Of a stretch of DNA of 64,000 nt, positions 19,303 through 61,950 are shown piece after piece (the stretch's first letter is position 1; each line of letters starts with the position of its first letter). The DNA comes from an uncultured Flavobacteriaceae bacterium. GTDB taxonomy: Bacteria; Bacteroidota; Bacteroidia; Flavobacteriales; Flavobacteriaceae. Made by a program: the position numbers and the translations under genes. Location: assembly GCA_947504035.1 (NCBI GenBank), contig CANNGA010000003.1:186001-250000 (forward strand), given 5' to 3'. Under the pieces are notes generated by a model. The model saw only the letters and a list, made by a program, of their open reading frames with translations, did not search any database and was not told the DNA's origin.

Positions 19303-19347
19303 GAAAAGTAGTTTCTACAAGCGGTAATATTGTCCTGCACTGACCTG
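19303..19347 (-). promoter_or_regulatory. Putative activator site plus promoter of the GH78 gene (CAGnn triple repeat)
   Basis: Read on the minus strand, the 17-mer CAGGTCAGTGCAGGACA (19347-19331) is followed after exactly 20 nt by TACTTTTC (19310-19303), one mismatch from TAnnTTTG. The same layout occurs upstream of susC (61950-61906) and of the sulfatase-GH78 gene (54959-54915). The box is 65 bases upstream of the ATG. Confidence 0.6.
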
Positions 19348-19711
19348 TAGTAGCACCTCAAAACTACTATGGCTACTAGACCAGCTTTAAAAATATAGTT
19401 ACTGTTCTTGTATCTCAGAACTACTGCTACCTGACGAATGGTCTTCATAGACTCTTAAGCCAGTATAGGACCAATAATAGCCCTTGTTTGTTAAATCTTG
19501 TTAAAGTTTAAAACGCATTGCACTTTTCATTTAAATCGCACGTTACAATACTACACCTATAATTGTAATATTAGCACCAATTAAGTAGTGCTTCTTAACG
19601 TGCGATGTATTTGTTAAAAATTTTATGTCATGCCGTAATCACCTGAAAGGCTTTTAATAGCTTTACTTTCAAAATATGTGTTAATTGAGATTCCCGATTA
19701 CTGGCAAAGAC
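19348..19711. other. Gene-free spacer between the GH78 and fabH-like genes
   Basis: No ORF or RNA gene is supported on either strand here, apart from the GH78 promoter region at the left edge and the hairpin at the right edge. Confidence 0.45.
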
Positions 19712-19747
19712 AACCCGAAATTAAATCTATGTATTTAATTTCGGGTT
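19712..19747 (-). terminator. Hairpin terminator downstream of the fabH-like gene
   Basis: A perfect 15-bp stem (AACCCGAAATTAAAT with its complement) and 6-nt loop, 30 bases past the fabH-like stop. The T tract is weak on both strands, so termination is inferred mainly from the position and strength of the stem. Confidence 0.65.
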
Positions 19748-19776
19748 TCTAATTTTAAAGTTATTATTAAATGCTA

Positions 19777-20784
19777 CTACCATTTAATCATAACACTACC
19801 CCATGTAAAGCCACTACCAAAAGCAGCAAGTACAACGGTATCTCCTGTTTTTATTTTATCTGCTTCCCAAGCTTCTGTTAATGCAATAATCACAGATGCA
19901 GCAGTTGTATTTCCATACTTTTGAATATTATTAAATACTTGGTCATCCCGTAATCCAAATTTCTTTTGTATAAACTGTGAAATCCTCAAGTTGGCCTGAT
20001 GTGGAATTAGCATATCAATAGCTTCTTTTTCAAGCTTATTAGCAACTAAACCCTCCATAATAACCTCGCTAAATCGCACTACGGCATGCTTAAAAACATG
20101 TTGTCCGTTCATATAAGGGTAGTAAGAAATATCTTCAGGATCGTTTTCTGCTATAATAGCAGGCACCCAATGTTTAATATTAGGCCCCTCTACAATAAGC
20201 TCTTTGGCATATTTTCCTTCGGAATGCAAATGCGACGACAAAATTCCTTCTGTGCGGTCTTCCGTTCTGCTTAAAACAGCAGCTCCGGCACCATCTCCAA
20301 AAATAACAGAAACACTACGTCCTCTGGTGGTTTTATCTAAACCTCCAGAATGGTACTCTGCACCAATAACCAGTATGTTTTTATACATGCCTGTTTTGAT
20401 AAATTGATCTGCTACTGAGATTGCATAAATAAAACCCGAACATTGGTTACGCACATCTAAAGCACCTATTGTAGGCATATCCAATAGATCTTGAATCTGC
20501 ACACCACAGCCCGGAAAGTAATAATCGGGACTTAAAGTGGCAAACACAATAAAATCAATGTCATCTTTTGTCAGTCCAGCACGTTCTATCGCAATGCGCG
20601 CTGCTTTAGCCCCCATAACTGCCGAAGTGTCTTCAGAGCCTTCTGGTATCCAACGGCGCTCTTTTATTCCCGTTCGTTCTTGAATCCAAGCATCGTTGGT
20701 ATCCATTAATTGCGACAAATCATCGTTTGTCACGACCTGCTCTGGCACATATTTACCAAGACCTATTATTTTAGAATTATACAT
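19777..20784 (-). CDS. 3-oxoacyl-ACP synthase III (KAS III / FabH-like)
   Basis: Condensing enzyme of 335 residues that would join an acyl-CoA to malonyl-ACP. The catalytic triad is visible: cysteine C115 in DVRNQCSGFIYA, histidine in PHQANLRISQ, and asparagine in YGNTTAASV. The GIKERRW and FGSGFTWGS motifs are also typical. Bacteroidetes often have several FabH paralogues, some serving initiation and others special lipids; this one has the YYFPGCGVQIQ variant near residue 90, so I do not assign it as the sole initiating FabH. No fatty acid synthesis genes adjoin it. Confidence 0.9.
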   Translation of the reverse strand: MYNSKIIGLGKYVPEQVVTNDDLSQLMDTNDAWIQERTGIKERRWIPEGSEDTSAVMGAKAARIAIERAGLTKDDIDFIVFATLSPDYYFPGCGVQIQDLLDMPTIGALDVRNQCSGFIYAISVADQFIKTGMYKNILVIGAEYHSGGLDKTTRGRSVSVIFGDGAGAAVLSRTEDRTEGILSSHLHSEGKYAKELIVEGPNIKHWVPAIIAENDPEDISYYPYMNGQHVFKHAVVRFSEVIMEGLVANKLEKEAIDMLIPHQANLRISQFIQKKFGLRDDQVFNNIQKYGNTTAASVIIALTEAWEADKIKTGDTVVLAAFGSGFTWGSVMIKW

Positions 20785-21098
20785 GTTTGCTGTTTTGTAA
20801 AACTAAAGTACGAAAATATAACCTTTGGTGTATTTAAGATCTAAAAGTGTTGCTAACAAAATGCATTGGTTCTTAAAATACATGGCTAATTCACCCCCGT
20901 TTTATTCCGTTTTAATCCATTTTGGTTGTACGCGCATCTCCCCTCACGTTGCATTACCATTGCTTTTCACGACGCATACTACCTTTAAATTAAAAAGCAT
21001 TCCGCTTCACATGTTTTTTTTCCGCTTCATCATTCTTTTTTTAAAACCACTAGAGTTTTGCGGTAATTTTGTTCAAAACAATAATTAGATATACTATC
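20785..21098. other. Gap with a possible promoter and no accepted gene
   Basis: An 87-residue ORF (20825-21088) here has unnatural composition and crosses the likely promoter of the fabH-like gene, so I reject it. A perfect TAnnTTTG box, TAATTTTG, occurs at 21064-21071, 28 bases before the small ORF at 21099, without a convincing -33 element. Confidence 0.35.
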
Positions 21099-21194
21099 AT
21101 GGAAAACACAAAAATCAATACATTACTCATATACCTCTTAATGGTCGTTGTTATTTTTCAACTCAGTATCCTAGTATGCTGGCTAAATTACTAA
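21099..21194 (+). CDS. Possible 31-residue single-pass membrane peptide
   Basis: A short ORF starts ATGGAAAACACA and encodes a hydrophilic N-terminus (MENTKINT) followed by about 22 hydrophobic residues ending CWLNY. This is the composition of a small transmembrane peptide. A TAATTTTG box lies 28 bases upstream of the ATG. It stands alone between a fabH-like gene and htpG. I do not recognise it, and chance cannot be excluded for an ORF this short. Confidence 0.35.
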   Translation: MENTKINTLLIYLLMVVVIFQLSILVCWLNY

Positions 21195-21416
21195 AGCATT
21201 TATTACACCTTAATTATCACGGACTAAGATTGTACTCATAACTTCCTATTACAACACTACTTTCTAAACTTTTGCCTTAGTCCTAAATAGCTTATCATAC
21301 TGTAACTATAGCCTCATACCACTTACAAACAATGTCAGTTTGTCATATTTAAAGACTTGGTATTTTTTTTGTCTAGTAGTTTTATCTAAAATACAAACAG
21401 ATAAAATACATATATC

Positions 21417-23327
21417 ATGACAAAAGGAAGCATTAATGTATCGGTAGAGAATATCTTTCCGCTTATTAAAAAATTCTTATATAGTGACCACGAAATCTTT
21501 TTACGTGAGTTAATTAGTAATGCTACAGATGCAACGCTAAAATTAAAGCACCTTACCAACATAGGTGAAGCTAAAGTAGAATACGGCAATCCTCAAATTG
21601 AAATTAAAGTTGATAAAGAAGGTAAAAAACTTCATATTATAGATCAAGGTTTAGGTATGACGGCTGAAGAGGTTGAAAAATACATCAACCAAGTTGCCTT
21701 CTCTGGAGCTGAAGAATTCTTAGATAAATACAAAGATTCTGCTAAAGATTCTGGTATTATTGGTCACTTTGGTCTTGGGTTTTACTCTGCATTCATGGTG
21801 GCAGAAAAAGTAGAGATCATCACTAAATCTTTTAAGGACGAACCTGCTGCACATTGGACTTGTGATGGTTCTCCTGAATTCACTCTTGAAGCGTCTGAAA
21901 AAACAGAACGCGGAACAGAAATCATTTTACATATCGCTGAAGATTCAGTAGAGTTTTTAGAAGATGCACGTATTCGTGAATTGTTGAACAAGTACAACAA
22001 GTTCATGCCTGTGGCCATTAAATTTGGAACTAAAGAGGTAAACGACCCTACGCATGAGCCTAAAACAACTAAAGATGAAGAAGGCAAAGAGACTACAGAA
22101 CCACATAGACAAATTACTGTAGATGACATCATCAACAATCCTGATCCTGCTTGGTCTAAGCAACCAGCAGATTTAAAAGATGAGGATTACAGCAACTTCT
22201 ACAGAGAATTGTATCCAATGCAATTCGAAGAGCCTTTATTTAACATTCACCTCAATGTAGATTATCCTTTTAATTTAACAGGTATTTTATACTTCCCTAA
22301 AATGTCTAACGACATGCAAATACAGAAGGATAAAATTCAATTGTACCAAAACCAAGTATTCGTTACCGATAATGTAGAAGGTATCGTACCTGAGTTTTTA
22401 ACCATGCTACGTGGGGTTATCGATTCGCCAGACATTCCATTAAACGTATCGCGTTCTTACTTACAAGCTGACGGTGCTGTTAAAAAGATTTCGTCTTACA
22501 TTACAAGAAAAGTAGCCGATAAATTAAAATCATTATTTAATAACAGTCGTGAAGATTTCGAAGCCAAATGGAACGATATTAAAATTGTTATTGAATACGG
22601 TATGCTTTCTGAAGAAAAATTCTTTGAAAAAGCAGAGGCTTTCACATTATATCCTACTGTAGATGGGAAGTACTATACCTACCAAGAATTATACGATAAA
22701 ATAAAAGCCAATCAAACCGATAAAGATGACAAGCTTGTTATTCTTTACACTTCCGATCAAGATGCACAGCACAGTTATATTGAAGCTGCCAAAGCAAAAG
22801 GATATGAGGTATTGGTATTAGATTCGCCTATTGTATCGCATTTAATTCAGAAATTAGAAGGTTCTAAAGAAAAAATAGCATTTGCTAGAGTTGATGGCGA
22901 TCATATTGATAACCTTATCAAAAAAGAAGACACTGCGGTTTCGAAATTAGATGAAGACCAAACTAAAGTTTTAGATGAATTATTAAAAGACATCATTCCT
23001 TCTGATAAATTCATGGTACAATTAGAAGCTATGGACAGCAGTGCAAATCCGTTTATCATTACACAACCAGAGTTTATGCGTCGTATGAAAGAGATGCAGC
23101 AAACTGGTGGTGGCGGTATGTTTGGCATGGGGAATATGCCAGAAATGCACAATCTTATTGTAAACACAAATTCTGAATTGGTAAGCGACATTTTAAGTAC
23201 TGAAGCCAAAGAAGATAAAGAACGTTTAATTAATCAAAGTTTAGACCTTGCAAGATTATCGCAAGGCTTACTTAAAGGTGAAGAGTTAACCAACTTTATT
23301 AAACGCAGTTACGAGATGATAAAATAA
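21417..23327 (+). CDS. htpG: Chaperone protein HtpG (bacterial Hsp90)
   Basis: ATP-dependent Hsp90 chaperone of 636 residues. The N-terminal GHKL ATPase domain shows LRELISNATDATLK (the catalytic Glu and the Asn that binds Mg), DQGLGMT and GHFGLGFYSAFMVA (the lid and glycine-rich loops). The middle domain begins around residue 230 and includes PLNVSRSYLQ with the conserved arginine; the C-terminal dimerisation domain is shorter than in eukaryotes and has a Gly/Met-rich loop near residue 565. This is the form usual in Bacteroidetes. A strong terminator follows. Confidence 0.97.
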   Translation: MTKGSINVSVENIFPLIKKFLYSDHEIFLRELISNATDATLKLKHLTNIGEAKVEYGNPQIEIKVDKEGKKLHIIDQGLGMTAEEVEKYINQVAFSGAEEFLDKYKDSAKDSGIIGHFGLGFYSAFMVAEKVEIITKSFKDEPAAHWTCDGSPEFTLEASEKTERGTEIILHIAEDSVEFLEDARIRELLNKYNKFMPVAIKFGTKEVNDPTHEPKTTKDEEGKETTEPHRQITVDDIINNPDPAWSKQPADLKDEDYSNFYRELYPMQFEEPLFNIHLNVDYPFNLTGILYFPKMSNDMQIQKDKIQLYQNQVFVTDNVEGIVPEFLTMLRGVIDSPDIPLNVSRSYLQADGAVKKISSYITRKVADKLKSLFNNSREDFEAKWNDIKIVIEYGMLSEEKFFEKAEAFTLYPTVDGKYYTYQELYDKIKANQTDKDDKLVILYTSDQDAQHSYIEAAKAKGYEVLVLDSPIVSHLIQKLEGSKEKIAFARVDGDHIDNLIKKEDTAVSKLDEDQTKVLDELLKDIIPSDKFMVQLEAMDSSANPFIITQPEFMRRMKEMQQTGGGGMFGMGNMPEMHNLIVNTNSELVSDILSTEAKEDKERLINQSLDLARLSQGLLKGEELTNFIKRSYEMIK

Positions 23328-23353
23328 GAAGAACTTATTTTACACCCTATATT

Positions 23354-23389
23354 AAAAACCACTTTGTACCCACAAAGTGGTTTTTTTTT
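23354..23389 (+). terminator. Rho-independent terminator of htpG
   Basis: A 14-bp stem (AAAAACCACTTTGT with ACAAAGTGGTTTTT) closes a 4-nt loop and runs directly into nine T residues, 26 bases past the htpG stop. Confidence 0.93.
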
Positions 23390-23398
23390 GATGTTGTT

Positions 23399-23564
23399 AA
23401 TGAACTCATCTTGACGTTTTGTTTTTAACCGAAAATGAGTTGAAATTTAACCAGACGAGGCCCTTTTTGAAGCCCATGGCAGCGCTACGGACAAAAAAAT
23501 AACGAAATAGGGGTGAATTTTAGCCATTTTTTAGGAAATAGAAAACGTTAAGATGAGTTCAATT
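23399..23564. repeat. Non-coding element bounded by 20-bp inverted repeats (MITE-like or structured RNA)
   Basis: The left arm TGAACTCATCTTGACGTTTT (23401-23420) pairs with 23542-23561 over 20 positions, with a single G-T pair in the middle, so the arms would form an unbroken RNA stem. Between them lie about 120 bases with no ORF, including a palindromic CCATGG stretch. Terminal inverted repeats around a short non-coding body are typical of MITEs; the wobble pair instead of a mismatch also fits a selected RNA stem. I see no target-site duplication. It lies between the htpG terminator and the VOC gene. Confidence 0.6.
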
Positions 23565-23633
23565 ACCCCTGACACCTTTTGTCGCTTGCGCCAATATCTT
23601 TGTAGCTAAGTTTAACTCACAAATTAATTTAAA

Positions 23634-24011
23634 ATGAAAAATGCTATTAGCTGGTTTGAAATACCAGTAACAAACTACGAACGCGCAAAACAATTTTACA
23701 ACACGGTTTTGGACACCGAAATTAAAGACCACCACATGCCAGAACAAAATGCGAAGTACGGCATGTTTGCTTATGATAATGACAACAATGGTGTTGGCGG
23801 TGGCCTTATTGAAGCAGAAGACCAAACACCAAGCACTAAAGGGCCTACAATTTACCTTAACGGAGGTGACGACTTAAGTGCCCCTTTAGGAAAAGTAGAA
23901 ACTGCTGGCGGTAAAATCACCATGCCGAAAACAGATATTGGCGAAGGCGGCTTTGTGGCACAATTTATAGATACAGAAGGCAATCGTATCGCCTTACATT
24001 CTTGGATGTAA
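23634..24011 (+). CDS. VOC family protein (glyoxalase/bleomycin-resistance fold)
   Basis: A 125-residue protein of the vicinal-oxygen-chelate superfamily. The pattern ISWFEIPVTNYERAKQFYNTVL at the start and GFVAQFIDTEGNRIALHSW at the end match the short VOC family common in Bacteroidetes, related to PhnB/YdcJ-type proteins. These proteins use a divalent metal; the reaction of this member is unknown. It is followed by a stem-loop and a separate regulator gene, so it may be monocistronic. Confidence 0.92.
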   Translation: MKNAISWFEIPVTNYERAKQFYNTVLDTEIKDHHMPEQNAKYGMFAYDNDNNGVGGGLIEAEDQTPSTKGPTIYLNGGDDLSAPLGKVETAGGKITMPKTDIGEGGFVAQFIDTEGNRIALHSWM

Positions 24012-24041
24012 ACCTGCTTCCTTTTTTAACCAAACAACGAT

Positions 24042-24067
24042 AGTGATCCCTTTATTTAGGGGTCACT
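24042..24067 (+). terminator. Stem-loop after the VOC gene
   Basis: A 9-bp stem (AGTGATCCC / GGGGTCACT, one G-T pair) with an 8-nt loop 30 bases past the stop. The T-rich tract after it is interrupted (CTCTTTACTT), so termination is likely but not certain. Confidence 0.55.
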
Positions 24068-24232
24068 CTCTTTACTTCCAGCGTTTACAACCATAGCTTG
24101 TGTTAAAAGATGAGCTACAGTATATCACCATTATAGCATTTTAATTTTAACCTCTGTACCCTATAAAACTTAATAATCGCTTACATTTACAGTAGTTAAG
24201 AATCATAAAAACACGTTCTAATTCATAATGCC

Positions 24233-24925
24233 ATGTCTCAATTATCTCGACTCATAGCCATTCTCACAACACTTAGATCTAAGCGCCTCGTAACGGCACC
24301 ACAACTTGCCGACAAATACGATGTGAGCATAAGAACCATATATAGAGATATTAGAAAATTAGAAGCCGCAGGAGTTCCTGTTGTGACTATAGAGGGCAAA
24401 GGTTATGCGCTTATGGAAGGCTATAATGTCACCCCCATGCAGTTCTCTGAGAAAGAAGCTAATGCCTTAATTACTGCGCAACAGCTCGTAAAACAGACGA
24501 AAGACAGCTCCTTTGTTTCAGATTTTAACGATGCGCTTGTTAAAATAAAATCTGTTTTTAAAACGACCATACAAGAGAAAAGTGAATTACTAGAACGTAA
24601 AATTTATGTGTTTAATTCCGATTTCGAAAATACATCTAGCCATGCGCTATCCGATATTCAACTGGCCATAACACATTTTAATTATATCGAAATGCACTAT
24701 CTAAAAGCGCATGCCACAACCGCGACCCATCGTAAAATAGAACCCTATGCTTTATATGCTACAAATCATAAATGGATCTTAATTGCCTGGTGCCACCTTC
24801 GTGCTAGCTATCGGGCTTTTAGAATAGATCGCATTCAACACTTTAAAATTTTAACAGACACCTTCGAAGATCGCAACTTCGAATTGCAAGCTTATTTTCA
24901 ATCCTGTGATGCAATAAATGCCTAG
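24233..24925 (+). CDS. HTH and WYL domain transcriptional regulator (YafY family)
   Basis: A 230-residue DNA-binding regulator. Residues about 5-60 form an HTH_11 winged helix (ITAPQLADKYDVSIRTIYRDIRKLEAAGVPV pattern, here VTAPQLADK...RTIYRDIRK), and residues about 135-215 a WYL-type ligand-sensing domain with IEPYALYATNHKWILIAWCHLR...FRIDRIQ. Such proteins usually bind a small ligand or nucleic acid and act as repressors or activators. It lies downstream of the VOC gene on the same strand but after a stem-loop. Target genes are not evident; the adjacent 630-base gap and urea locus are possible but unproven targets. Confidence 0.92.
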   Translation: MSQLSRLIAILTTLRSKRLVTAPQLADKYDVSIRTIYRDIRKLEAAGVPVVTIEGKGYALMEGYNVTPMQFSEKEANALITAQQLVKQTKDSSFVSDFNDALVKIKSVFKTTIQEKSELLERKIYVFNSDFENTSSHALSDIQLAITHFNYIEMHYLKAHATTATHRKIEPYALYATNHKWILIAWCHLRASYRAFRIDRIQHFKILTDTFEDRNFELQAYFQSCDAINA

Positions 24926-25557
24926 AGCATAAGGATCTTCTTCAACCTGTTCAGTCTATGAAAAGTACCTAGGCACCCAATCTATACCTTATGATGGCGC
25001 GTACTTAACTTCAACTTGCTTAAAATACAATCTAAAAATAATAAGCCTTCCTTATACAACATACAGTGCTTAGGCTCCAGTATACGTCTAAGACGTTAAA
25101 AAAGCCCTCTAAATACTCTTAATTGCGACACATTAACCGTATATAGTTCATAAGTAAATCCCCCTTTATTAAGCCATCTCAAAATCTCAATACTTGAGAT
25201 AAACAGTCCTTTAATATCACAAAAAGTATCCCTATTAGAGCCTTATGCCCTTAAATAGAGTATTTAGCCTACAAAAAAACAAAACAAACCCATGTTACAA
25301 TAACACACAACAGCGTACAAAGCTATTCCCAATTTATCACCTACGTAATTCCACGTATTTCTAATGCAGTAAAACTAACATATCAATTTTATCTATGCAT
25401 TATTTTTAAGTATTTAACAAAAACACAAACAATATGACATTAAAATCACGTATTTAAAGCATTAATATGTAGATTTGAAACGTACTAGTACTTAGATTAA
25501 ACTCACCTTTCATTCCTTGATTGGTGCTGATAAACATTTAACTTAATTTTCTAAAGC
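24926..25557. other. Long gene-free region upstream of the urea locus
   Basis: No ORF of convincing composition is seen on either strand over 630 bases. It contains candidate operator palindromes at 25184-25200 and 25482-25491 (GTACTAGTAC) and is therefore probably the control region of the porin-urt-ure locus. I found no sigma-54 site or strong TAnnTTTG promoter. Confidence 0.45.
25184..25200. promoter_or_regulatory. Candidate operator palindrome upstream of the urea locus
   Basis: A perfect 7-bp inverted repeat with a 3-nt centre, ATCTCAA-TAC-TTGAGAT. A third half-site ATCTCAA lies at 25176-25182. The spacing and symmetry suit a dimeric regulator of CRP/FNR or similar size. It is about 360 bases from the porin ATG, so the promoter it would serve is not identified. 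Confidence 0.35.
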
Positions 25558-26853: not shown

Positions 26854-26855
26854 CC

Positions 26856-45478: not shown

Positions 45479-47116
45479 TTGAAAACGATAACATTTATAG
45501 TCTTCCTTTTTTTAGGTATTAGTCCAGCATTTAGTAATGGTGACCTAGATTCTTTGCTTATTGCCTTAGAAATACATATGGACAAAAGGCAACACTATGA
45601 TACATCGAAACAGCTTAGAATTAAAAACCTCTCTAAACTCCTTCATGATAAAACAGCTACTCTTGAAAATGCCTACTTTATCAACAATGAAATTATTAAC
45701 GAATATGAAAAATACAGTTTTGATAGTACACTCGTGTACATAGAGAAGAACATTGAAATTGCAAATCGTTTAAAAAACCCCAAATACGTTAAAGCCTCTA
45801 AACTTAAACTTTCTAAATTACTTGTACAGTCTGGACGGTATAAAGAAGCCATTGATGTTTTACAAGCACTGCATAGACACCAACTGGATGGTGGTATCTT
45901 AAATCTATATTATTATATTTTTAAAGAAAGTTACTCTGGATTAAGCTTTTATACTTCAGTAAAAAAAAATAAAGAAAAATATACAGCACTTTACAAAGCT
46001 TACCAAGATTCACTTTCACTTCGGTTAGATATTAACTCTAATGCATCTCTGGCTCTAATTGAAAAAAAATACAGGGATGCGTATCGTATAAAAGAAGCTT
46101 TAACGCTAAATTCTAAACGCTTAGACAACGTTTCTATCGGAACTCTAGACTATTCATTAATAACTTTCGAAAGAGCCTTATTGTATCAACTAAGCGGTGA
46201 TGTATACCAACAAAAACGTTTTTTAGCGTTATCTGCCATTTCAGACATCAAATCCTCTGTAAAAGATAATGCCTCTTTAACAGAACTAGCCATGTTACTC
46301 TTTAAAGAGAAGGCTATTGATAAAGCTCATAAATATATTGTCTTCTCTGTTGAAGATGCCGAACTTTATAATTCTAAGTTGCGCTTTGTAAATATTTCAA
46401 ACAAACTATCTGTTATATCTAAAGCTTATGAAGCGAGACGTTTAGAGCAAAACAATACCTTACAAAGCTTGCTTTTCTTTATAAGTATTCTTGTTTTAAT
46501 TTTAATAATTACCATTTATTACATCTACAAACAGATTAAAAAATTATCTGCTGCTAGAAAGAGCCTAAAACAAGCTAATATGCAATTACAGCATTTAAAT
46601 GCTAAATTAAAATTCACAAATGAAGATTTGAACAGATTGTATAATGAACTTTCCAACTCTGATAAGATAAAGGAACAATATATTGGTACCTTTTTAAATT
46701 TATATTCGGATTACATCAATAAGTTAGATACCTACCGTAAAATGGTTCGGAAATACATCATGGCCAATAAAACAAAAGCGTTGTTAGATTTCACCAAATC
46801 TAAACAGCTCATTGATAATGAACTTAATATTTTTTATCAAAATTTTGACAAATCGTTTCTTCATATCTATCCGAATTTTGTAGACGATTTCAATGCACTT
46901 TTAAAAGCCGAACACCGTATTGTACTTGTGGAAGAACAGGCTTTAAATACAGAATTAAGAATTTTTGCTCTCATTCGTTTAGGCATCACGAGCAGTTCTA
47001 AAATCTCTAAAATTTTACGTTACTCTGTAAACACCATTTACAACTATAGAGTCAAGGTTAAAAATGCAGCAAAAAACAGAAATACATTTGAAGATGCTGT
47101 AAAAAATATATCGTGA
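45479..47116 (+). CDS. DUF6377 family membrane-bound transcriptional regulator next to the PUL
   Basis: A 545-residue predicted regulator. It has a signal peptide (residues 1-19, TTG start at 45479), a periplasmic helical-repeat region resembling TPRs (about 20-320), one transmembrane helix (about 325-346, LFFISILVLILIITIYY), a coiled coil, and a C-terminal LuxR-like HTH (ALIRLGITSSSKISKILRYSVNTIYNYRVKVKN). This layout matches the DUF6377 family, which lies beside SusCD-type loci in Bacteroidetes and probably senses a polysaccharide-derived signal in the periplasm. A palindrome ATTGTAGTACAAT (45400-45412) lies 67 bases upstream, a possible autoregulatory site. Its targets are inferred. Confidence 0.88.
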   Translation: MKTITFIVFLFLGISPAFSNGDLDSLLIALEIHMDKRQHYDTSKQLRIKNLSKLLHDKTATLENAYFINNEIINEYEKYSFDSTLVYIEKNIEIANRLKNPKYVKASKLKLSKLLVQSGRYKEAIDVLQALHRHQLDGGILNLYYYIFKESYSGLSFYTSVKKNKEKYTALYKAYQDSLSLRLDINSNASLALIEKKYRDAYRIKEALTLNSKRLDNVSIGTLDYSLITFERALLYQLSGDVYQQKRFLALSAISDIKSSVKDNASLTELAMLLFKEKAIDKAHKYIVFSVEDAELYNSKLRFVNISNKLSVISKAYEARRLEQNNTLQSLLFFISILVLILIITIYYIYKQIKKLSAARKSLKQANMQLQHLNAKLKFTNEDLNRLYNELSNSDKIKEQYIGTFLNLYSDYINKLDTYRKMVRKYIMANKTKALLDFTKSKQLIDNELNIFYQNFDKSFLHIYPNFVDDFNALLKAEHRIVLVEEQALNTELRIFALIRLGITSSSKISKILRYSVNTIYNYRVKVKNAAKNRNTFEDAVKNIS

Positions 47117-51336: not shown

Positions 51337-54300
51337 TTAAAAAGAATTAATCTTTAGCTGAATAGTGTGTTTTCCTGGTTCTAATCGTATTGTTTCAAAT
51401 GCTGAAGGTACTTTTTTACCATTATGGATCAAGTCTTTTCCATTAAGGTTATTTAACGAAAATTCTGCTACCATATTCCCTGGTATTTGAATTGTGTACG
51501 TTTGCAACCTTGGACCATTAAATTTATAGTCTGCACTAATAGTACCTCTAACCGTTGGTACTTTTATACTACTCGATTTTAACTTACTCATCTGTGGTTT
51601 AATTCGTGCTATTCCAAAACCTGGCGTTTGTGGTTGAATACCCCATAACCCTCTAGGAATTACATTAGCAGGAACTGCACCCCATGCATGATTCCAATCT
51701 AAATTGTTTTTATATTTATTATCCCAAGCTTCTAATGTTATGGTAGAACCAATACGAATCATATTGTACCAACTTCTATCAGTCTTACTTTTTAACAACT
51801 CTAATGCGTAATCGGCTTCTCCTGCATTATACAATCCATCCATTAAAAATTGAGCTCCATAAACACTACATGCCATTTTACGCGATTTCACATAATTCAC
51901 TACAGTTTCATAATGTTCCTCTGGTACTAAACCAAAAGCTAAAGGCATCATATTGGCGTGTAAAGAGGCATGATCTGTACCAATACCATCTACATAGATA
52001 CCACGTTCTTTATCGAACATTTGTGCGTTAACAGCTTTCTTAGCTTTGGCTGCTCTCAATTCAAAATCTAAAACTTCTTGAGTTTTTCCTAAAATTTGAG
52101 CAAACTGGGCCATTATTTTCATGTTTTCATAAAAGAAAGCATTGATGACTGTACTGTAAGGTTTAAAGACAAAACCATCACGTTCACCTTTAGTTTTACT
52201 CCCATTGAAATTAGCAGAAGGCCAATCTACGATATCTGTTAATGGTTTTTTATAACCATCTTTGAAGCCTAATTTTCTCATAAACGCTTGATCCACTTTG
52301 GTAGAAGTGATTAAACCATCTTCATTAGACAATTCAAAAAGTGTTTTATGTTTTAGGGCTTCATAATAACGCTCTATAAGCTCTGTATTTCCTGTATACA
52401 TATAATCGGCATGTATAAGCAAAGCCACGTGTTGTTGCCATTCTGTAGGCCATGTTGGATTTTTCATGAAATACTCTATAGTACGCCTTGCTATGGCGAA
52501 TTCTCTATCTGTAGTATAATGACTCAACTGGTTCAAATAAGCATCTGCCTCATAAGGTATACGTTCTCTATCTCCATCTACGTATAAGCCATTAAATGTG
52601 GTAGCTTTAATAGAGTATTTACACAAATCCCACACTTGATTTAAAATATCATTGTTACTTGTAAAGCTACTCGCGGTCTCATCCCAATAGGTATGAAAAG
52701 CCAACTGTTCGAAATCGTCTGCTTTAAGTGTTTCCTGTGCACCTTCAACCTCTGCGTATCTAAATGGTACAAGAGCAGGAAAACCTTTTGGTAAAGGAAT
52801 AGCCTTATTAGGTCTTGTATTTCTTTCGTCTGTTTGTACTGGTATTTGATACTTTGTTTGTCCCGGCTTAACGTCTACTTTAAGCTCTTGGTAACGAATA
52901 TTACTCTTCTTTGGAGGCGTTCTATTAACACGTCCTTTAGCATCTGCCATTTCACCTACTCGAATTGTTAAAGTATGTGCTGTTTTAGCATTATATGTAA
53001 AGTCCATTGTAGCAAATGCAGCTTTTCCAAAATCCATCACATAGCTATCGCCTTGTTTTAAAAACGTTTTAGGCTTGATGCGATCGATTTGAAATTGATT
53101 TTCTGTAGAAGTGATATAACTAGCGCTCTTTCCTGTCGTAAACTTTTGAACTTTAGAGTAATCTACTAGTCGATTTGCTTCATCCCATATACGTACTTTC
53201 CAAAAATAGGTTTTACCTAACTCTAAATCGTTTCCTGCATATTCTACATCAGTCGATGCAGAACTGCGTATTTGTCCACTATCCCAAACATCTCCATTAT
53301 TCGTGTTAATTTGTGCTTCTGTCGAAGCTAACAATATCTGATAAGCAGATTGAAATTTTGATCCTAAAGGCACCGTCCAACCAAATTCTGGTTTTGTATC
53401 ATATATTTTAACATCTTTACCTGGCGCTCTGATTAATTCAACGGTAAGATCTGTAGGCGCTGCTCTATAGGCATTACTATTCTTTTTTATAAGTGCTTCT
53501 AACTTAAGACGAAGTTCGTCTGCAACCTTCTTGTACTTTTTCTTGCCTATCAAATTTTTCAATTCTTTAGGGTCCTTCTCTAAATCGTAAAGCTCTTCTA
53601 ATGTTTTGTCATTAACATATCTAAAATACTTCCACTTTTTAGTTCTCACACCTTCACTTGGTGCTATATTTTTAAAATCCCAAATATGCTCAATTAGAAT
53701 AGCGTCTCTACCTATTGTATTTGTTTCTTGCTTTACAACAGGCATTAAACTTTTACCTTGCCATGTCTCTGGTGCTTCAACACCTGCAATATCTGCAATA
53801 GTATAAGGCACATCTATATTTAATGCCATATCATTAACATCACCATGCTTATTAACTCTAGGATCGAAAACAATTAAAGGCACACGAATAGAATTCTCAT
53901 ACATAAGCCACTTTCCTGCAAATTGGCGTTCTCCTAAAAAATAACCATTATCCCCCATGACAATGATAACTGTATTTTTATCTAATCCTTTTGCCTTTAG
54001 CTTCTCACGTATTTTCTTGATTTCTAAATCTACTCCCGAAATCATTCTGTAATACCCCTTTAAACTGTGTTGGTATTTTTCTGGGGTATCATATCGCCAC
54101 GTCCAACGCAATCTGTTAAATCCATCTCTAACAATTTTTGGTTGGGCTTCAAAATACTTGTCATCTGCCAATTCTGGCCCTGGAATCGTTGTATTTTGTA
54201 ATAGGCCGTCTGTAGTATTTTGCCAAAAGTATTGATCTACAGCTTTATCATGTGCGTGTGGTGCACTAAAACTTAAAGACAAGCAAAATGGCGCTTCATT

Positions 54301-54864
54301 TTTACCGTTAGCTTCTATGAAATCTAAGGCTTTCTGCCCTGTATAACGCGTTAAGTGTACCGTATCTTTACCTAAAGTTTTGTAATAATACCCTCTTCTA
54401 TCTTTGTAATTGTTATTTCTATCGTATGATTCATATTCGTGAAATTGCTTCTCTAAATCATTATAGCGTACGCCATATTTTCCGTAAAATCCTGTATAGT
54501 AGCCATTGTTTTTTAACAATGCAGGATAGGAATTGGCCATATATTCTTCTCTAACATTTCCTGTTTGAAAATTAAAATTATGAGAACGTTCATGTAAACC
54601 TGTTAAGATACTTGCTCTACTGGCTGCACAAATAGGCGTTGTTACAATAGCAGTATTAAAATAGGTGCCTTTACGTGCTAAATCGTCCATTTCAGGAGTT
54701 TGTACATATTTGTTACCGACGTAACCAATGGCATCAAAACGTTGATCATCGGTTAAAATAAATATGATATTAGGCTTTTCTTTATGACTTGCCTTTTGGG
54801 CTTTCATTAAATTTAAACTACATACAGTAATTAATAAGGCTACTAAAAAAGTGTGTTTGCGCAT
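51337..54864 (-). CDS. Bimodular sulfatase (family S1) and GH78 alpha-L-rhamnosidase fusion
   Basis: A 1175-residue exported two-enzyme protein with an N-terminal signal peptide (cleavage about residue 22, MKAQ). Residues about 28-470 are an S1 sulfatase: calcium ligands DD39-40 ([12 protein letters not shown]), formylglycine motif [11 protein letters not shown] (C79, Ala in place of the usual Pro), and [10 protein letters not shown] near residue 303. Residues about 480-1175 are GH78: a fibronectin-like domain ([10 protein letters not shown]...[11 protein letters not shown]), then the catalytic (alpha/alpha)6 domain with [12 protein letters not shown] near residue 765 (acid Glu and Asp) and [12 protein letters not shown]...WNHAW (base Glu). 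The same combination is known from ulvan PULs of marine flavobacteria, where one protein removes sulfate and rhamnose. It has its own promoter with the CAGnn repeat. Confidence 0.92.
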
Positions 54865-54914
54865 GATCGCTTTGTTATTTTTTAAAGAGAATTTTTATTT
54901 TTTTTCACAAGCAC

Positions 54915-54959
54915 TAAAAATAATTCTTTAGAAGCGCAGTTCTATCCTGTTCTGTCCTG
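54915..54959 (-). promoter_or_regulatory. Putative activator site plus promoter of the sulfatase-GH78 gene
   Basis: On the minus strand CAGGACAGAACAGGATA (54959-54943), 20 nt, then TATTTTTA (54922-54915), one mismatch from TAnnTTTG. It is 51 bases before the ATG. Identical layout to the sites before susC and the stand-alone GH78. Confidence 0.6.
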
Positions 54960-54982
54960 ACATATTTTAAGTATGTATCAAA

Positions 54983-55010: not shown

Positions 55011-55032
55011 TATTAGTAAAAGTATAAAATCA

Positions 55033-56121: not shown

Positions 56122-56143
56122 TTGTTTAAATATTAATAGATTA

Positions 56144-56971
56144 TTAGTTATTAGGTATACTAAGGTCAAAATTATTGTATAGAGAATATTCTTGAGCACG
56201 AGCAGTTCCTTCAATTACGTGTCCTATACCATTATTGAAAACAAAATTGTGTTGAACAACTGTTTGCTCAAAATCAGAAGTTGTTATCCCTGGATTAACA
56301 CCTGATCTCAAAGGGTTTATTACTAAAACAAGTCTCTCCCTTAGTTCTACAAATATAGGGTTAACTTCGTCACTTAAACCAATTATTTCTTGTGTTCTTT
56401 GATTAACATCTACTCTAGGTAATAACGAATTAAATTCTCTGAACACATTTATCCTTGGTATAGAAGTAGCTTGGTTAACTTGCTCTCCATCAATAATATG
56501 ATATCTAATCATAGCGCGCAATCTGTTCATTTCCTCAGTAGTTAGGTCATCAAAAAATGTATCTAGATTAACGTTTCTGGGCGCAGCTCCTAAAGAGCCA
56601 TTTATAATAACATTTGGATTTCTTTCATTATTTCCATTTATAAAAGCTCTATTTGAAAATAATAGATATGTGCGATCCTCTGTATTTGTTTGCATATACA
56701 AACTTTCTAAACCTGCTGCTTGTACTGCTGCTCTAAAGTAGTCTAGATTATTTTCATTAAACCCTCCAAGGTCTCTAGCACCAGTGTCTGGATCAACAAT
56801 AGAGTTTGATCTTCTTGACCCTATAAATTCCCAAGCAGTCATATTTTGAAAAGGGTCGTCGGGACTTATTAAGTCAGGCTGGAAATTAAATTCATCCTGA
56901 ACATCAAGAGTACAAGATGAAATCAAAAGCGCAATTAAGAATGTTATAGATAATTTAAAATATAATTTCAT
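56144..56971 (-). CDS. Fasciclin-like domain lipoprotein (PUL surface protein)
   Basis: A 275-residue lipoprotein (LISSC, C20) with a degenerate fasciclin fold: MTAWEFIGSRR and NLDYFRAAVQAAGLESLY for the first helices, TYLLFSNRAFINGN, IRYHIIDGEQV and NGIGHVIEGT for the conserved H box. I read it as one FAS1-like domain with long insertions. It lies 21 bases downstream of susD and 22 bases upstream of the second fasciclin gene, on the same strand. Confidence 0.82.
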   Translation of the reverse strand: MKLYFKLSITFLIALLISSCTLDVQDEFNFQPDLISPDDPFQNMTAWEFIGSRRSNSIVDPDTGARDLGGFNENNLDYFRAAVQAAGLESLYMQTNTEDRTYLLFSNRAFINGNNERNPNVIINGSLGAAPRNVNLDTFFDDLTTEEMNRLRAMIRYHIIDGEQVNQATSIPRINVFREFNSLLPRVDVNQRTQEIIGLSDEVNPIFVELRERLVLVINPLRSGVNPGITTSDFEQTVVQHNFVFNNGIGHVIEGTARAQEYSLYNNFDLSIPNN

Positions 56972-56992
56972 GATTTTTATCGTATTAAATTA

Positions 56993-58576
56993 TTACCATT
57001 CAGGGTTCTGAGATAGTAATGGATTAGCTGTAAGGTGATTGTTAAATATTGGCCAGAGTACTCGAGCTTCTGTTAGAGGTATAAACCCTTCATCACCACT
57101 TCGGGCGCTTAAAAGTGGATTTAACGTTTGAACAGCTCTATCATTTCTTACCAAATCCCACCAACGCTTACCTTCTGCAAACAATTCGAATTGTCTTTCA
57201 TCTAACAAATAATCTAAACGACTATCAAAATCGTTACCAAAATCTGTTGCAGTAGCTGTAGGTAATTGTCTAGCTACTCGTATTTCATTTATTCTAGCTA
57301 AAGCTTGCTCGGTATTACCCAATTTTAATTCGGCTTCCGCTATCATCAAAATAATATCTGCATATCGATATACAACAATGTCTGTATCATCTTGTCCATT
57401 TGATAAACCACTACGTTCTTCTTGCCATTTTTCTATACGGGCTTCTCCAATATCTATATTACCAAAACCTTCTTCAAAGGTACCGTTTTCTCTAGTTGCA
57501 AAATGACGCCAATCACCATATAAAGGTACTTCTGCATTACTTCCATCACTTTGTCTTTCTGTAATTGTAAATACTGGAGGTGTATCTGGATATAAATCTT
57601 CCCACGTAGAATCAATTGGAAAACGCTCTAACCATTTCTCCTCTACATCAGTAGACATTACAGTAACTCTAGCGCCTCCAGCATATAAAGAAAGAACAGA
57701 TGAAGATATTTCTCCTACTGGATCATTAAACGGTATAGAAAATATTAATTCTGGACCTCTTTGTAACTTTCCTCTTCCTTGAAGGAAACGAGGAACCATT
57801 GCCTGATTAGAAAATAATTCTTCCCATGCTTCAGGTGTTGTTACCAAACTATGCGTTCCAAGCTCTTCTAATTCAGTTAGAGCTTCTAGTGCTAATTCAT
57901 TTTCACCTAACCATAAATACACTTCACCTCGTAAAGCTAAAATGCTCGATTTAGAAAAACGAAATTCACTTGACATTTCTGTATCTGGCACTAATCTATT
58001 TGCTAAATTCATATCAGGGATAATCACTTCAGAAAAAACTCGTGCAGCTGGTGTTACGTTTTGAAAAACGTCGCCAACAATGGTAGATGGTTCTGTAAAT
58101 ACTGGTATGTTTCCCCAAACACGTACCAAATCAAAATATAGCTTTGCTCGCATGGCATAAGCTTGCGCTAATATATAATCATCTGCATCAGGAATATCAG
58201 CCGATTCTAATATAACTCTATTTAAACCATCAATAGCTTTATAAGGATCATTCCAACTTAACAGCCCTCCATTAGCTGGATCCATAACACTATTATGGAG
58301 TAGTCTACGCTCATTGTCTGAATCGGGCGCAAAACTATCAGACCTAAGATCACCCCATTGGAAATAACGATTTCTATAAGTTACCCTTAAAAAAGCATAA
58401 GCAGCTGTTAAAGAGCCTTCTAAAGCGTCATTTGAAGTAAAAAAAGTATCATTTGTCGTAAAGCTTTCTGGAGTTTCATCTAGAAAGTCTTCACAAGAAA
58501 ATAACGATGTAGCAGCTATTAAAGATAGCGTTACAGCTCGTTTTAGGGTTTTATTTTTATTAAAAAACATCATCAT
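56993..58576 (-). CDS. SusD/RagB family surface glycan-binding lipoprotein
   Basis: A 527-residue lipoprotein (signal ending LFSC, C28) of the SusD family. Features are the N-terminal CEDFLDETPESFTTNDTFF, TPR-like helices (AYAMRAKLYFDLVRVWGNIPVFTEPS), and the C-terminal RYADIILMIAEAELKLGNTEQALARINEIRVAR and ERQFELFAEGKRWWDLVR segments. It forms the lid that captures oligosaccharides for the TonB-dependent channel encoded just upstream (13 bases). Three consecutive Met codons start the ORF; any of these could be used. Confidence 0.97.
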   Translation of the reverse strand: MMMFFNKNKTLKRAVTLSLIAATSLFSCEDFLDETPESFTTNDTFFTSNDALEGSLTAAYAFLRVTYRNRYFQWGDLRSDSFAPDSDNERRLLHNSVMDPANGGLLSWNDPYKAIDGLNRVILESADIPDADDYILAQAYAMRAKLYFDLVRVWGNIPVFTEPSTIVGDVFQNVTPAARVFSEVIIPDMNLANRLVPDTEMSSEFRFSKSSILALRGEVYLWLGENELALEALTELEELGTHSLVTTPEAWEELFSNQAMVPRFLQGRGKLQRGPELIFSIPFNDPVGEISSSVLSLYAGGARVTVMSTDVEEKWLERFPIDSTWEDLYPDTPPVFTITERQSDGSNAEVPLYGDWRHFATRENGTFEEGFGNIDIGEARIEKWQEERSGLSNGQDDTDIVVYRYADIILMIAEAELKLGNTEQALARINEIRVARQLPTATATDFGNDFDSRLDYLLDERQFELFAEGKRWWDLVRNDRAVQTLNPLLSARSGDEGFIPLTEARVLWPIFNNHLTANPLLSQNPEW

Positions 58577-58589
58577 AAAAAATTTAAAT

Positions 58590-61500
58590 TTAAAATCTAA
58601 CTTGTAAACCTAGAAGAAACTCTCTGTCATTTGGAAATCTAAGGTTATCCAGACCTGGAGTTAGAGGGTTACCTCTTGTTCCAAATTCAGGGTTAAATCC
58701 TTGATAATTCGTCCAAGTTAAAACATTATTAACTGCAAAATTGAAGTTTACCTTTTTTAAGCCTATTTTCAAGTTATTAACAATTTTTTTAGGTAAATCA
58801 TAACCAAAACGCGCATAACGCCATTTTATAAAGCTACCATCTTCAACGTAAAGACTATTTGCTGTAGATGAGAAAACATCACTACGGTCTATGGTATTGG
58901 TCTGTCTATCTCTTCTATCTAAAATTGGAAAAACGGCTATATCACCAGGATTAGTCCATGCATTCTCAATTCTATCAGGGCTTGGCGTAAACGTTGTAGA
59001 TCTTACATTACGTTCTTGATCGTACTCTCTAAAAATATCATTACCAAAACTATAATCGAATAAAACTCCAAAAGTGAAATTTTTGTATTTAAAATCACTT
59101 GTAAAACCACCAAATGTAGTAGCAATTCCATTACCTAATATTTCTTGTCCGTCACCTTCTTCATCAATTACAAAATCACCGTTAACATCCTCCCAGAAAA
59201 CATCTCCTCCACGAAGTGGATTTCCTTCAACCCCTATTATTCTTCTTATGTTCTCAACTTCTTCTTGCGGGAACGCAGACCCGTCTGCTCTATTATATGT
59301 CCCTAAGAAAAAACCATTTTGATCAAAATTAGGAAATAATTGCTCACCTTCTTCTGTAAATGCATTAGACTCATCGTATTGGAAAACCCCGTTATTTCTA
59401 AATCCTACAATATTACCTATTGGTTGACCTTCTTCTACACGGTACTGTAGTTCTGAATCATTAGCTGGTCGCAAAGGTCTAAAACTATCTGCTCCTCCAT
59501 CTAATAAAGTCAAGCTCACAACTTCATTTCTCGTAAATCCAATATTAAACCCTGCATCCCAAGAAAAATCATTCGTTTTTAAAACCGTTCCACTTATTGC
59601 AATATCGATACCTTCGTTTCTTATTGTACCTACATTTGCTCGTATTGAAGAGAAACCAGACTCAGGAGGTAAAGTTAAATCTTGTAATAAATCATCAGTA
59701 TCATTACGGTAAACATCAAATACAAACTTTAATCTATTTTTAAAGAGTGCTAGATCTAAACCTAAATTTATTGATGTCGTTTCCTCCCACTTAAGATCTC
59801 CATTAGCAATACTAATCGCTTCAAAACCACTATTTGCATTAAAAACAGCACTATTACTAGGTTGTAATAAGGCAAATCTATCATTTGGTGGTATACGGTC
59901 ATTCCCCGTAATACCATAACTACCACGTAATAATAAGTTATTTATAACATTACTATTTTTAAGAAAATTTTCTTTACTAATATTCCATCCTAACGAACCT
60001 GATGGGAAATAACCAAATTGATTATTATCAGAAAACCTAGAAGAACCATCTCGTCGTACTGTAGCACTAAATAAATACTTGCCTTTATAGTCATAACTAA
60101 AACCAGAGAATAAAGAAAATAAAGTAGTAACTTGATCAAAAGTATTATCTTGTACAACCACCCGCTCAGGAGCAGTGTTACCAAATGTTCTAATGAAATT
60201 ATTATTGAAATCTGCTGCTAAATTCAATCTTTCAGTCCAATTTCTTTGTAATTGCATACCTGCAAATGCAGAAAAATTATGTTCTCCCCATTTATTCTTG
60301 TAATTCACAAAATTTTCTTGCTGAATTGCATAAGTAAATTCGTTTATTTCCGTACCACGGGTAGGATTGTTACTGTCGGACAATGGATTAAATTGTCTCC
60401 CTAGAAAATCAGGTGTAAAAGTACGGTTCTTATTAAAAGCAAAATCTAAACCTAATGTAGACTTAACCGATAACTGTGGAGTAATTTTAAGCTCTGCATA
60501 ATTAAAAACATTACCTCTTAAACGACGTCGGTTTCTTGTTTCCGATTCAAGAACTGCTAAAGGATTAACCGTACCACGTCCCGATATTGTAGTAGCAAGA
60601 GAACCATCTGGTTCAAAAACAGGAGCAAAAGATAAACGACGAACAACCTGAGTTAAAATCTGACCTATATTAGCACCATTAATATCTTCGAAAGATAAAT
60701 TTGCTAAAGTTCCTAATTTAAATTTATCTGAAGGTGTTACATCTATTTTTAAACGCGTGTTTATACGTCTAAAATCAGCCCTATTAACAACACTTTCTTC
60801 ATCTATGATTCCAGTACCCCAATAAAAACGAGCTTTTTCACTTCCACCGCTTATTGCTATATTAGTTTGTGTTCTTACACCTGGTCGTGTTAACAAATCT
60901 AATAAATCTGGATTAGTTCTAAATTGTTGACTTAACGTGTCTCTAATTGATGGATCTCTACCTGGTACTAGTGGGTTATTTCCAGCTCTAGCAAGTTGTT
61001 CTATTCTAACACCCTGCGCACTAGTAGCTACAGGTACTTGACCTACTAACGTATTGATTCCTGTACTTGTATTGATGCTTACATTAAGTTTTCCTGCTTT
61101 TCCACTTTTAGTCTTAATAATAACTACACCATTACCTGCCCTAGATCCATAAATTGCTGCTGTTGCTCCATCTTTAATAACTTCTAAAGACGCGATATCT
61201 GCAGGATCTAAATTATCAATATTAAACGTTTGCTGTCCATCTACAACATATAAAGGCCCTGTAGCTCCCGCATTAAAAGTAGAGATACCACGAATTCGAA
61301 TATCGAATCCTTCTCCAGGCCCATTGTTAGATAGTACTTGAACACCTGACAATTTACCTTGAACACCTTGTAATGCATCTACTGGTGCTGCCTGAACTAT
61401 AGATTCTGCTTTAACAGAACCAACAGATCCTAGTATTTTTTCACGTTCTACTGCAGCGTATCCAATTACAACTACAGCTTCAAGACTTTCAACATCCTCT

Positions 61501-61838
61501 TCTAAAACAACGTCTACATTGTTATCGGCTCCTACAGTAACTTCCTTGGTTTGAAATCCTATATACGAAAACACCAAAGTTTTAGCACCAGAACCTAATA
61601 GTAATGTGAATTTACCATCAAAATCAGTCACGGCTCCTTTAGAGGTTCCTTTTTGTAAGACATTTACACCTGGCAATGGAATACCATCTTGACCTGCCAC
61701 CTTACCTGTAACACGATCTTGAGCTTGAAGCGTCATAGAAGTAAAACTGGAAAAGACCAGTACTAATACTAACATCAAGCTCGAAACAGGAAATTTGTTT
61801 TTCAATTTTTGTTTCATTTTGAGTTTAAGTTTTAACAT
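58590..61838 (-). CDS. SusC/RagA family TonB-linked outer-membrane transporter
   Basis: TonB-dependent channel for oligosaccharides, 1082 residues. After the signal peptide (cleavage about residue 39, TLQAQ) there is a carboxypeptidase-regulatory-like (beta-sandwich) domain (about 42-125, VTGKVAGQDGIPLPGVNV), the plug domain (about 135-250, with GFDIRIRGISTF and YVVDGQQTF...NLDPADIASLEVIKDGATAAIYGSRAGNGVVIIKTKSG), and the 22-strand barrel ending in LLGLQVRF. All SusC signatures are present. The first ATG (61838) gives MLKLKLKMKQ; ATG 61817 (MKQKLKNKF) is an alternative start. It lies 430 bases downstream of the GH2 gene and 13 bases upstream of susD. Confidence 0.97.
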   Translation of the reverse strand: MLKLKLKMKQKLKNKFPVSSLMLVLVLVFSSFTSMTLQAQDRVTGKVAGQDGIPLPGVNVLQKGTSKGAVTDFDGKFTLLLGSGAKTLVFSYIGFQTKEVTVGADNNVDVVLEEDVESLEAVVVIGYAAVEREKILGSVGSVKAESIVQAAPVDALQGVQGKLSGVQVLSNNGPGEGFDIRIRGISTFNAGATGPLYVVDGQQTFNIDNLDPADIASLEVIKDGATAAIYGSRAGNGVVIIKTKSGKAGKLNVSINTSTGINTLVGQVPVATSAQGVRIEQLARAGNNPLVPGRDPSIRDTLSQQFRTNPDLLDLLTRPGVRTQTNIAISGGSEKARFYWGTGIIDEESVVNRADFRRINTRLKIDVTPSDKFKLGTLANLSFEDINGANIGQILTQVVRRLSFAPVFEPDGSLATTISGRGTVNPLAVLESETRNRRRLRGNVFNYAELKITPQLSVKSTLGLDFAFNKNRTFTPDFLGRQFNPLSDSNNPTRGTEINEFTYAIQQENFVNYKNKWGEHNFSAFAGMQLQRNWTERLNLAADFNNNFIRTFGNTAPERVVVQDNTFDQVTTLFSLFSGFSYDYKGKYLFSATVRRDGSSRFSDNNQFGYFPSGSLGWNISKENFLKNSNVINNLLLRGSYGITGNDRIPPNDRFALLQPSNSAVFNANSGFEAISIANGDLKWEETTSINLGLDLALFKNRLKFVFDVYRNDTDDLLQDLTLPPESGFSSIRANVGTIRNEGIDIAISGTVLKTNDFSWDAGFNIGFTRNEVVSLTLLDGGADSFRPLRPANDSELQYRVEEGQPIGNIVGFRNNGVFQYDESNAFTEEGEQLFPNFDQNGFFLGTYNRADGSAFPQEEVENIRRIIGVEGNPLRGGDVFWEDVNGDFVIDEEGDGQEILGNGIATTFGGFTSDFKYKNFTFGVLFDYSFGNDIFREYDQERNVRSTTFTPSPDRIENAWTNPGDIAVFPILDRRDRQTNTIDRSDVFSSTANSLYVEDGSFIKWRYARFGYDLPKKIVNNLKIGLKKVNFNFAVNNVLTWTNYQGFNPEFGTRGNPLTPGLDNLRFPNDREFLLGLQVRF

Positions 61839-61905
61839 ACAATTTAGTTTTATTTAATATGAATATGAAATGTACGTATTTTCAATAATCATAAATATAT
61901 GTTAA

Positions 61906-61950
61906 CAATTTTACGAATTGCGGCTTGGTTCCGTATCCTGTACTGTACTG
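61906..61950 (-). promoter_or_regulatory. Putative activator site plus promoter of susC
   Basis: On the minus strand CAGTACAGTACAGGATA (61950-61934), 20 nt, then TAAAATTG (61913-61906), one mismatch from TAnnTTTG. The box is 68 bases before the ATG at 61838. The three CAGTA/CAGTA/CAGGA units are head-to-tail with a 5-bp period. Confidence 0.6.

Follow-up and report, generated by a model that had tools for sequence, protein, structure and literature searches.

Which protein reads the short repeated element that stands before three genes of rhamnoside degradation in a 64-kb stretch of an uncultured Flavobacteriaceae genome, and how does it act there? The whole stretch, referred to here as the window, corresponds to C3:186001-250000 (contig and positions) of the source genome (G000, 4,230,986 bases in 73 contigs). 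Our analysis indicates that the element serves as operator in a rhamnose/ulvan regulon and is probably bound by a GntR/LacI-type regulator acting as a class II activator. The gene of this protein, which we call GntR_rha, lies by rhaD at C11:23675-24712. Ulvan degradation represents a sizeable flow of seaweed carbon, and having a named candidate regulator together with an operator and a promoter geometry makes the question of its control directly testable. We found no published description of a regulator or operator of this kind, nor of the control of ulvan degradation in marine flavobacteria, in the open-licence literature, which misses most subscription papers. The regulators of polysaccharide utilization loci (PULs) that have been described for Bacteroides are mostly membrane sensors (PMC3878776).

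Three operators in the window and about twenty in the genome

The three copies of the operator are all on the minus strand, as are their -7 boxes and target genes. The first, CAGGTCAGTGCAGGACA (19331..19347), is upstream of a stand-alone GH78 alpha-L-rhamnosidase gene (955 aa, 16371..19238; Bac_rhamnosid6H, 9.4e-72). The second, CAGGACAGAACAGGATA (54943..54959), precedes a sulfatase-GH78 fusion (1175 aa, 51337..54864) whose domain order is like that of the characterised Formosa agariphila ulvan enzyme P36 (S1_25-GH78; PMC8511951), and the third, CAGTACAGTACAGGATA (61934..61950), precedes the gene of a SusC-like TonB-dependent transporter (1082 aa, 58590..61838), with SusD next (56993-58576). 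At 20 nt downstream of each operator is a -7 box, TACTTTTC (19303..19310), TATTTTTA (54915..54922) and TAAAATTG (61906..61913), respectively, each differing from TAnnTTTG by one mismatch. An original prediction made from the window's letters had described these 17-mers and 8-mers; its letters, coordinates and strand are exact, 12 of the 17 columns are identical by inspection, and it assigned the three genes correctly. Its statement that no copy exists elsewhere holds for the window, where CAGnnCAGnnCAG occurs exactly three times on both strands, always as one of the operators, and where the long pattern described below finds just these three sites at up to four mismatches with at most one of them in CAGGA. 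It does not hold for the genome.

The exact pattern CAGNNCAGNNCAGGAYA has three matches in the genome, all within the window, and its reversed form has none; with one mismatch allowed, there are 12 matches versus 1 in the reversed control. The one-mismatch matches pointed to a narrower consensus, and the interval to TAnnTTTG looked by eye to be 20 nt in them as well, so the long pattern CAGNNNAGNNCAGGAYA-N20-TANNTTTG was searched. The genome-wide search that the original prediction had proposed as a check thus gave 23 matches at up to three mismatches compared with 2 in the control (4.23-Mb genome), among them sites upstream of rhamnose, ulvan and uronate genes. All 13 matches with no more than two mismatches lie outside open reading frames (ORFs) and upstream of a co-oriented gene, whose start codon follows the box at 24-320 bp. 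Six of the 10 three-mismatch matches are likewise outside ORFs and upstream of a co-oriented gene, three are within ORFs (C1:454901, C11:44238 and C14:40548), and one, C9:102233, is in no long open frame and has no gene assigned. A GH39-like gene on C6 is preceded by an additional site whose spacer is 21 nt long. Three one-mismatch core matches looked unrelated and were set aside, two within ORFs (C4:186735 and C4:212065) and one that by eye is near a transposase-like ORF (C7:218186).

The genes behind these sites make up the regulon. One site heads the rhamnose cluster, whose first gene encodes a bifunctional rhamnulose-phosphate aldolase (RhaD, above the NCBIfam cut-off), while the names RhaI, RhaK, LldD and permease in this cluster come from below-cut-off matches together with gene order. 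Glycan genes behind sites encode three PL28 ulvan lyases, a BNR_4 lyase-like protein, GH43, GH5 and the GH39-like protein, as well as a GH39/GH53-like protein, GH2 and a second SusC-like protein, the last of these named from a look at its sequence. A D-mannonate oxidoreductase (with UxuA downstream) and one hybrid two-component system (HTCS) protein are also encoded behind sites. A similar set of enzymes is encoded in the characterised ulvan locus of Formosa agariphila, which includes among others PL28, GH2, GH3, GH39, GH43, GH78, GH105 and S1_25-GH78 (PMC8511951). Three proteins behind sites have no Pfam match (C1:90342-90866, C12:96844-97611 and C11:109963-110877) and may have new functions related to ulvan or rhamnose. 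The prediction of three rhamnoside-degradation promoters was therefore real in substance but too narrow, for there are about twenty such promoters in the genome and the regulon is conserved over the family and beyond. A genome-wide prediction of rhamnose/ulvan genes, including those of proteins of unknown function, becomes possible in this way.

The operator is a direct repeat at a fixed distance from the -7 box

The anatomy of the operator was taken from 126 distinct cores with at most one mismatch, found without requiring a -7 box in 107 sequences that total 1,379,490 bases (the window, L036-L051 and L082-L171). Their consensus, CAGKAYAGTACAGGAYAS, is an 8-bp direct repeat with a 10-bp period that can be written as CAGKAYAG-N2-CAGGAYAS and is non-palindromic; 20 sites of the source genome agree with it and are variable at two middle positions. 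The three head-to-tail CAGnn units of the original prediction are visible as a 5-bp sub-repeat, although the 8-bp repeat describes the site better. When the two 8-mers are read directly their mean identity is 5.73/8, whereas the 25 inverted registers reach 4.86 at best, a comparison in which the search pattern favours the direct form. The operator accordingly lacks the palindrome that would go with an AraR-like GntR-LacI chimera. Further copies upstream of a core occurred at no distances other than 5, 10, 15, 20 and 30 bp. Arrays of four CAGGA-like units in 10-bp steps occur at C6:142543 in the source genome and at C6:208935 in G184, and they suggest the binding of a head-to-tail oligomer.

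The distance to the -7 box is rigid. TANNTTTG follows 55 of the 126 cores at offset 20 and no more than two at every other offset from 0 to 59, and TANNTTTR follows 72 at offset 20, although these counts lack independence, since many of the cores are rhaD promoters of related genomes. Between the operator and the -7 box TTTG shows no peak in the 126 cores, so that a conserved -33 element is absent. As TAnnTTTG has been mapped at -12 to -5 in Flavobacterium psychrophilum (PMC9723704), the 17-mer would span -49 to -33 with its centre at -41. A centre near -41, which takes its absolute position from that mapping, a fixed distance to the core promoter and the missing -33 element are the features of a class II site, so the shared operator, the rigid 20-nt spacing and the place of a class II activator before rhamnoside/ulvan genes, all proposed from the window, are supported. 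The operator, its spacing and the regulon are established by computation; genome controls, the spacing test and controls upstream of rhaD together reject a chance origin. The same geometry suggests a ready design for inducible promoters in flavobacteria.

The motif accompanies GntR_rha across genomes

In a family set of 199 genomes from 198 genera, searched with the long pattern with W allowed and at most two mismatches, 88 genomes have a match. A close GntR_rha, defined by at least 54% identity, is found in 42 genomes and a match at E<=1e-30 in 90; the best score per genome is at least 427 bits in the 42 and 272 in the next genome. Every one of the 42 has at least one match, compared with 46 of the 157 genomes without a close GntR_rha, and at least four matches are present in 34/42 versus 0/157. 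Total matches amount to 347 against 13 in the control for the 42 genomes and to 54 against 43 for the 157, which means that without a close GntR_rha the motif is near background. Five genomes have a RhaD of 63-83% identity but a GntR of just 36-45%, and these contain 0, 0, 1, 2 and 0 matches, which suggests that the motif follows the GntR protein rather than the pathway.

The neighbourhood of the gene, like its co-occurrence with the motif, is a computed observation: GntR_rha adjoins the rhamnose operon in most genomes. The sites are compactly clustered in five genomes (G143, G190, G110, G184 and G125), and each cluster contains rhamnose genes and a GntR gene that is 59-76% identical to the GntR_rha of the source genome and lies directly by rhaD in four of the five. 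The copy by rhaD in G110 is truncated (121 aa, C32:38343-38708) and a full copy lies about 11 kb off. In a phylum sample of 296 genomes, GntR_rha was found at E<=1e-90 in 12, none of which has fewer than two matches; 5 of the 12 also belong to the family set.

The promoter of rhaD carries a phylogenetic footprint. The 300 bp upstream of rhaD were scanned in 46 genomes (41 close-GntR and 5 distant-GntR) with spacers of 19-21 and ties resolved to 20. The best match has at most three mismatches in 42/46, always with a spacer of 20 (11, 18, 10 and 3 genomes at 0, 1, 2 and 3 mismatches), while the reversed pattern has at least four mismatches in all 46 regions and shuffles with the spacer fixed at 20 likewise never fall below four. 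A site is upstream of rhaD in 40 of the 41 testable close-GntR genomes, G002 being excluded because its rhaD starts at a contig end, and in the 41st, G127, a site stands before the permease-like gene that precedes rhaD. Among the distant-GntR genomes, G064 and G108 have three-mismatch sites and G020, G024 and G037 have 5-7 mismatches. On the opposite strand a one-mismatch match was seen in 5/46 regions, which may mark a second site facing the divergent GntR gene.

We also considered 36 named loci, several of which are from family-set genomes, with spacers of 18-22 allowed. A spacer-20 site is upstream of rhaD in 27 of the 29 loci that contain the rhaD start, and the remaining two, from Flavobacterium, have a two-mismatch site before a permease-like gene. 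Two loci from Echinicola, which belongs to another order, also have the site before a permease-like gene, and G368 and G210, from other families, have it before rhaD. In the Anditalea locus (L171, GntR 49%) no site with three or fewer mismatches was found in its 21 kb and no rhamnose gene was recognised.

GntR_rha as the probable activator

GntR_rha has an N-terminal GntR winged helix (PF00392, 40.7 bits against a cut-off of 27), which places it in the GntR family, and a C-terminal Peripla_BP_3 domain (36.8 bits against 26.5) of the LacI/periplasmic-binding-protein type. Its AlphaFold2 model, which was built along with 32 named orthologues, has a mean pLDDT of 88.8 and a low-confidence hinge or linker at 81-85, and the top Foldseek matches are LacI, RbsR and CcpA. 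A profile search of PDB sequences returned 20 winged-helix matches, including AraR and GabR, and one weak match to the sensor domain. NCBIfam gives PdxR as the best match, confined to the helix-turn-helix segment and far short of the cut-off for PdxR. In an alignment of 50 GntR sequences, close orthologues hardly vary in the presumed recognition helix, LSRDTVEKAY, which reads SRDTVVKAY or SRDTIVRAY in G108 and G037. Recognition of a direct repeat could be explained by winged helices attached through a hinge to a LacI-type dimer.

We propose that GntR_rha would bind the direct repeat, which is separated from the sigma-A -7 box TAnnTTTG by exactly 20 nt, so that the operator, at about -49 to -33, would replace the -33 element. 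The LacI-type domain would bind a rhamnose-derived ligand, either rhamnose or an early catabolite, and two winged helices in head-to-tail order would occupy the same face of the double helix, one at -49/-42 and the other at -39/-32, and touch RNA polymerase in a class II manner. Rhamnose catabolism, ulvan lyases, rhamnosidases, the sulfatase-GH78 and SusC/D would then be switched on jointly. Direct binding, the nature of the ligand and activation rather than repression are what we infer; that GntR_rha is an activator on a direct repeat of 10-bp period is probable from the sequence comparisons.

An alternate explanation would keep the same operator and GntR_rha and make the protein a ligand-released repressor that blocks the polymerase. 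Many sugar-responsive GntR and LacI proteins do repress, AraR, which has the same build, was deposited as an 'arabinose metabolism transcriptional repressor', the top fold matches are proteins of the LacI, RbsR and CcpA type, and an alginate regulator of Zobellia is a GntR-family repressor according to a title cited in PMC9296495. The 20 nt to the -7 box are nevertheless kept across promoters and genera, a constancy that repression would not require and that counts against this explanation, and the site occupies the place of a -33 element that is itself not conserved. We therefore regard repression as unlikely, although it is the most serious of the rivals. A factor co-inherited with the rhamnose operon, such as an HTCS/AraC protein or an alternative sigma factor, could also be imagined to read the motif, given that GntR_rha and rhaD are nearly inseparable and that the HTCS gene has its own three-mismatch site 238 bp upstream (C20:56335). 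Motifs of the HTCS/AraC type are, however, repeats with a period of about 21 bp (PMC3878776, PMC3870299), and none of the 126 cores has a second copy at that period; the -7 box is of the usual sigma-A type, which speaks against an alternative sigma factor. In the five compact clusters, compared with a small reference set of source-genome proteins, GntR_rha is present in 5/5, an HTCS-like match (28.7%) in G143 alone and DUF6377 in none, the regulator search across genomes being limited to GntR_rha and DUF6377. Such a factor is in our judgement improbable.

The original prediction had named the DUF6377 protein of the window PUL (45479..47116, plus strand) as a candidate for the regulator. This protein passes the NCBIfam equivalog cut-off for 'SusR family glycan utilization regulator' (531.8 bits, cut-off 480), so the window does carry a SusR-family regulator, and its location in the PUL is suggestive in view of the regulation of glycan PULs by SusR-like proteins (PMC3878776). 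Taken alone, DUF6377 is even associated with the motif, with at least four matches in 7 of the 10 genomes that have an orthologue of at least 54% identity versus 27/189 (p = 0.0002). Orthologues are nevertheless scarce (10/199 genomes at that identity, 14 at E<=1e-60) and missing from 27 of the 34 genomes with at least four matches. The three genomes that have DUF6377 without a close GntR_rha (G014, G175 and G179) contain 1, 0 and 0 matches, as opposed to 4-18 in the seven that have both. The motifs predicted for SusR repeat at a distance of 67 or 77 bp (PMC3878776), and a second copy so placed occurs in 0/126 cores at up to three mismatches. Once GntR is accounted for, DUF6377 does not track the motif across genomes, as the GntR/LacI-type protein by the rhamnose operon does; we have rejected it as regulator of this operator, and that it binds the motif is very improbable indeed.

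Several observations weigh against the role proposed for GntR_rha. Most GntR-family proteins bind palindromes (PMC5320631), unlike the non-palindromic operator here. The 54% threshold for a close GntR_rha was chosen after the list was seen, though it falls at a gap in the scores. RhaD alone is nearly as strong a predictor, with at least four matches in 34 of the 47 genomes that have it at 63% identity or more (a 48th match, at 32%, was excluded) versus 0/152, because GntR_rha and rhaD are tightly linked. The two are separated by just five genomes, of which two (G064 and G108) retain three-mismatch sites, and the relatedness of the genomes means that Fisher p-values overstate the association. 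The background is higher in the phylum sample, where 100 of the 284 genomes without a close GntR_rha have at least one match and four (G261, G271, G311 and G373) have at least four; in our judgement the matches in these four, and the three in G077, are scattered or repeated non-consensus sequences. G340 and G205 carry consensus-like sites before SusC genes, in G205 also before a permease-like gene, with a GntR of just 38% and 45%, respectively. Finally, several genomes have two or more GntR_rha-like paralogues, which makes the pairing of sites with paralogues ambiguous.

Relation to known systems and paralogues

AraR is a repressor that acts on palindromic operators, and its C-terminal domain is a LacI/periplasmic-binding-protein sensor, the build that it shares with GntR_rha. 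The AraR-type GntR-LacI chimera (PDB 4egy, 4egz, 4h0e) also has a GntR winged helix as in GntR_rha, whereas the operator described here is a direct repeat with a fixed distance to the -7 box. The MocR-type GntR regulators GabR, PdxR and TauR likewise place a winged helix on direct repeats, often beside a divergent gene, and activation has been reported for them, but they have an aminotransferase-like sensor domain and their repeats are two to three helical turns apart instead of one (PMC5320631). In Bacteroides, the rhamnose activator RhaR (BT3768) also controls a rhamnose operon in the Bacteroidota, yet it is an AraC-family protein with a 21-bp repeat motif (PMC3870299, PMC3878776). The SusR-like and HTCS regulons of Bacteroides PULs similarly use direct-repeat operators before PUL genes, with periods of 67/77 bp or about 21 bp and with membrane sensors (PMC3878776). 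Motifs of DeoR-type RhaR are direct repeats of 10-11 bp period before rhamnose genes, as here (PMC3870299), although the protein is of the DeoR family.

A second, more remote GntR-LacI paralogue (35%, C20:4066-5067) stands directly before a variant operator, CAGGATAGAGCAGGACGG (C20:5307-5351), at a D-mannonate oxidoreductase/UxuA cluster whose genes extend to C20:13920, and G044, G145 and G169 have a GntR of 33-34% in the same order before a similar site. The variant operator and its paralogue suggest a uronate regulon of the same design. A broader reading, which we hold tentatively and at somewhat less than even chance, is that there may be a Bacteroidota-wide class of GntR-LacI chimeras that activate in class II fashion from head-to-tail 10-bp direct repeats standing in for the -33 element, with a variant for each paralogue (CAGKAYAG-N2-CAGGAYAS for rhamnose and CAGGAYAGAGCAGGACGG for uronate). 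The rhamnose member would in this way place entire ulvan utilisation loci, dispersed along the chromosome, under the control of an intracellular monosaccharide signal instead of an oligosaccharide sensor in the membrane.

Another locus of the source genome, C20:53234-60708, contains a 55% paralogue of GntR_rha, a sulfatase-like gene and the HTCS gene with its upstream three-mismatch site, and cross-talk of a membrane sensor with a cytoplasmic regulator is possible there.

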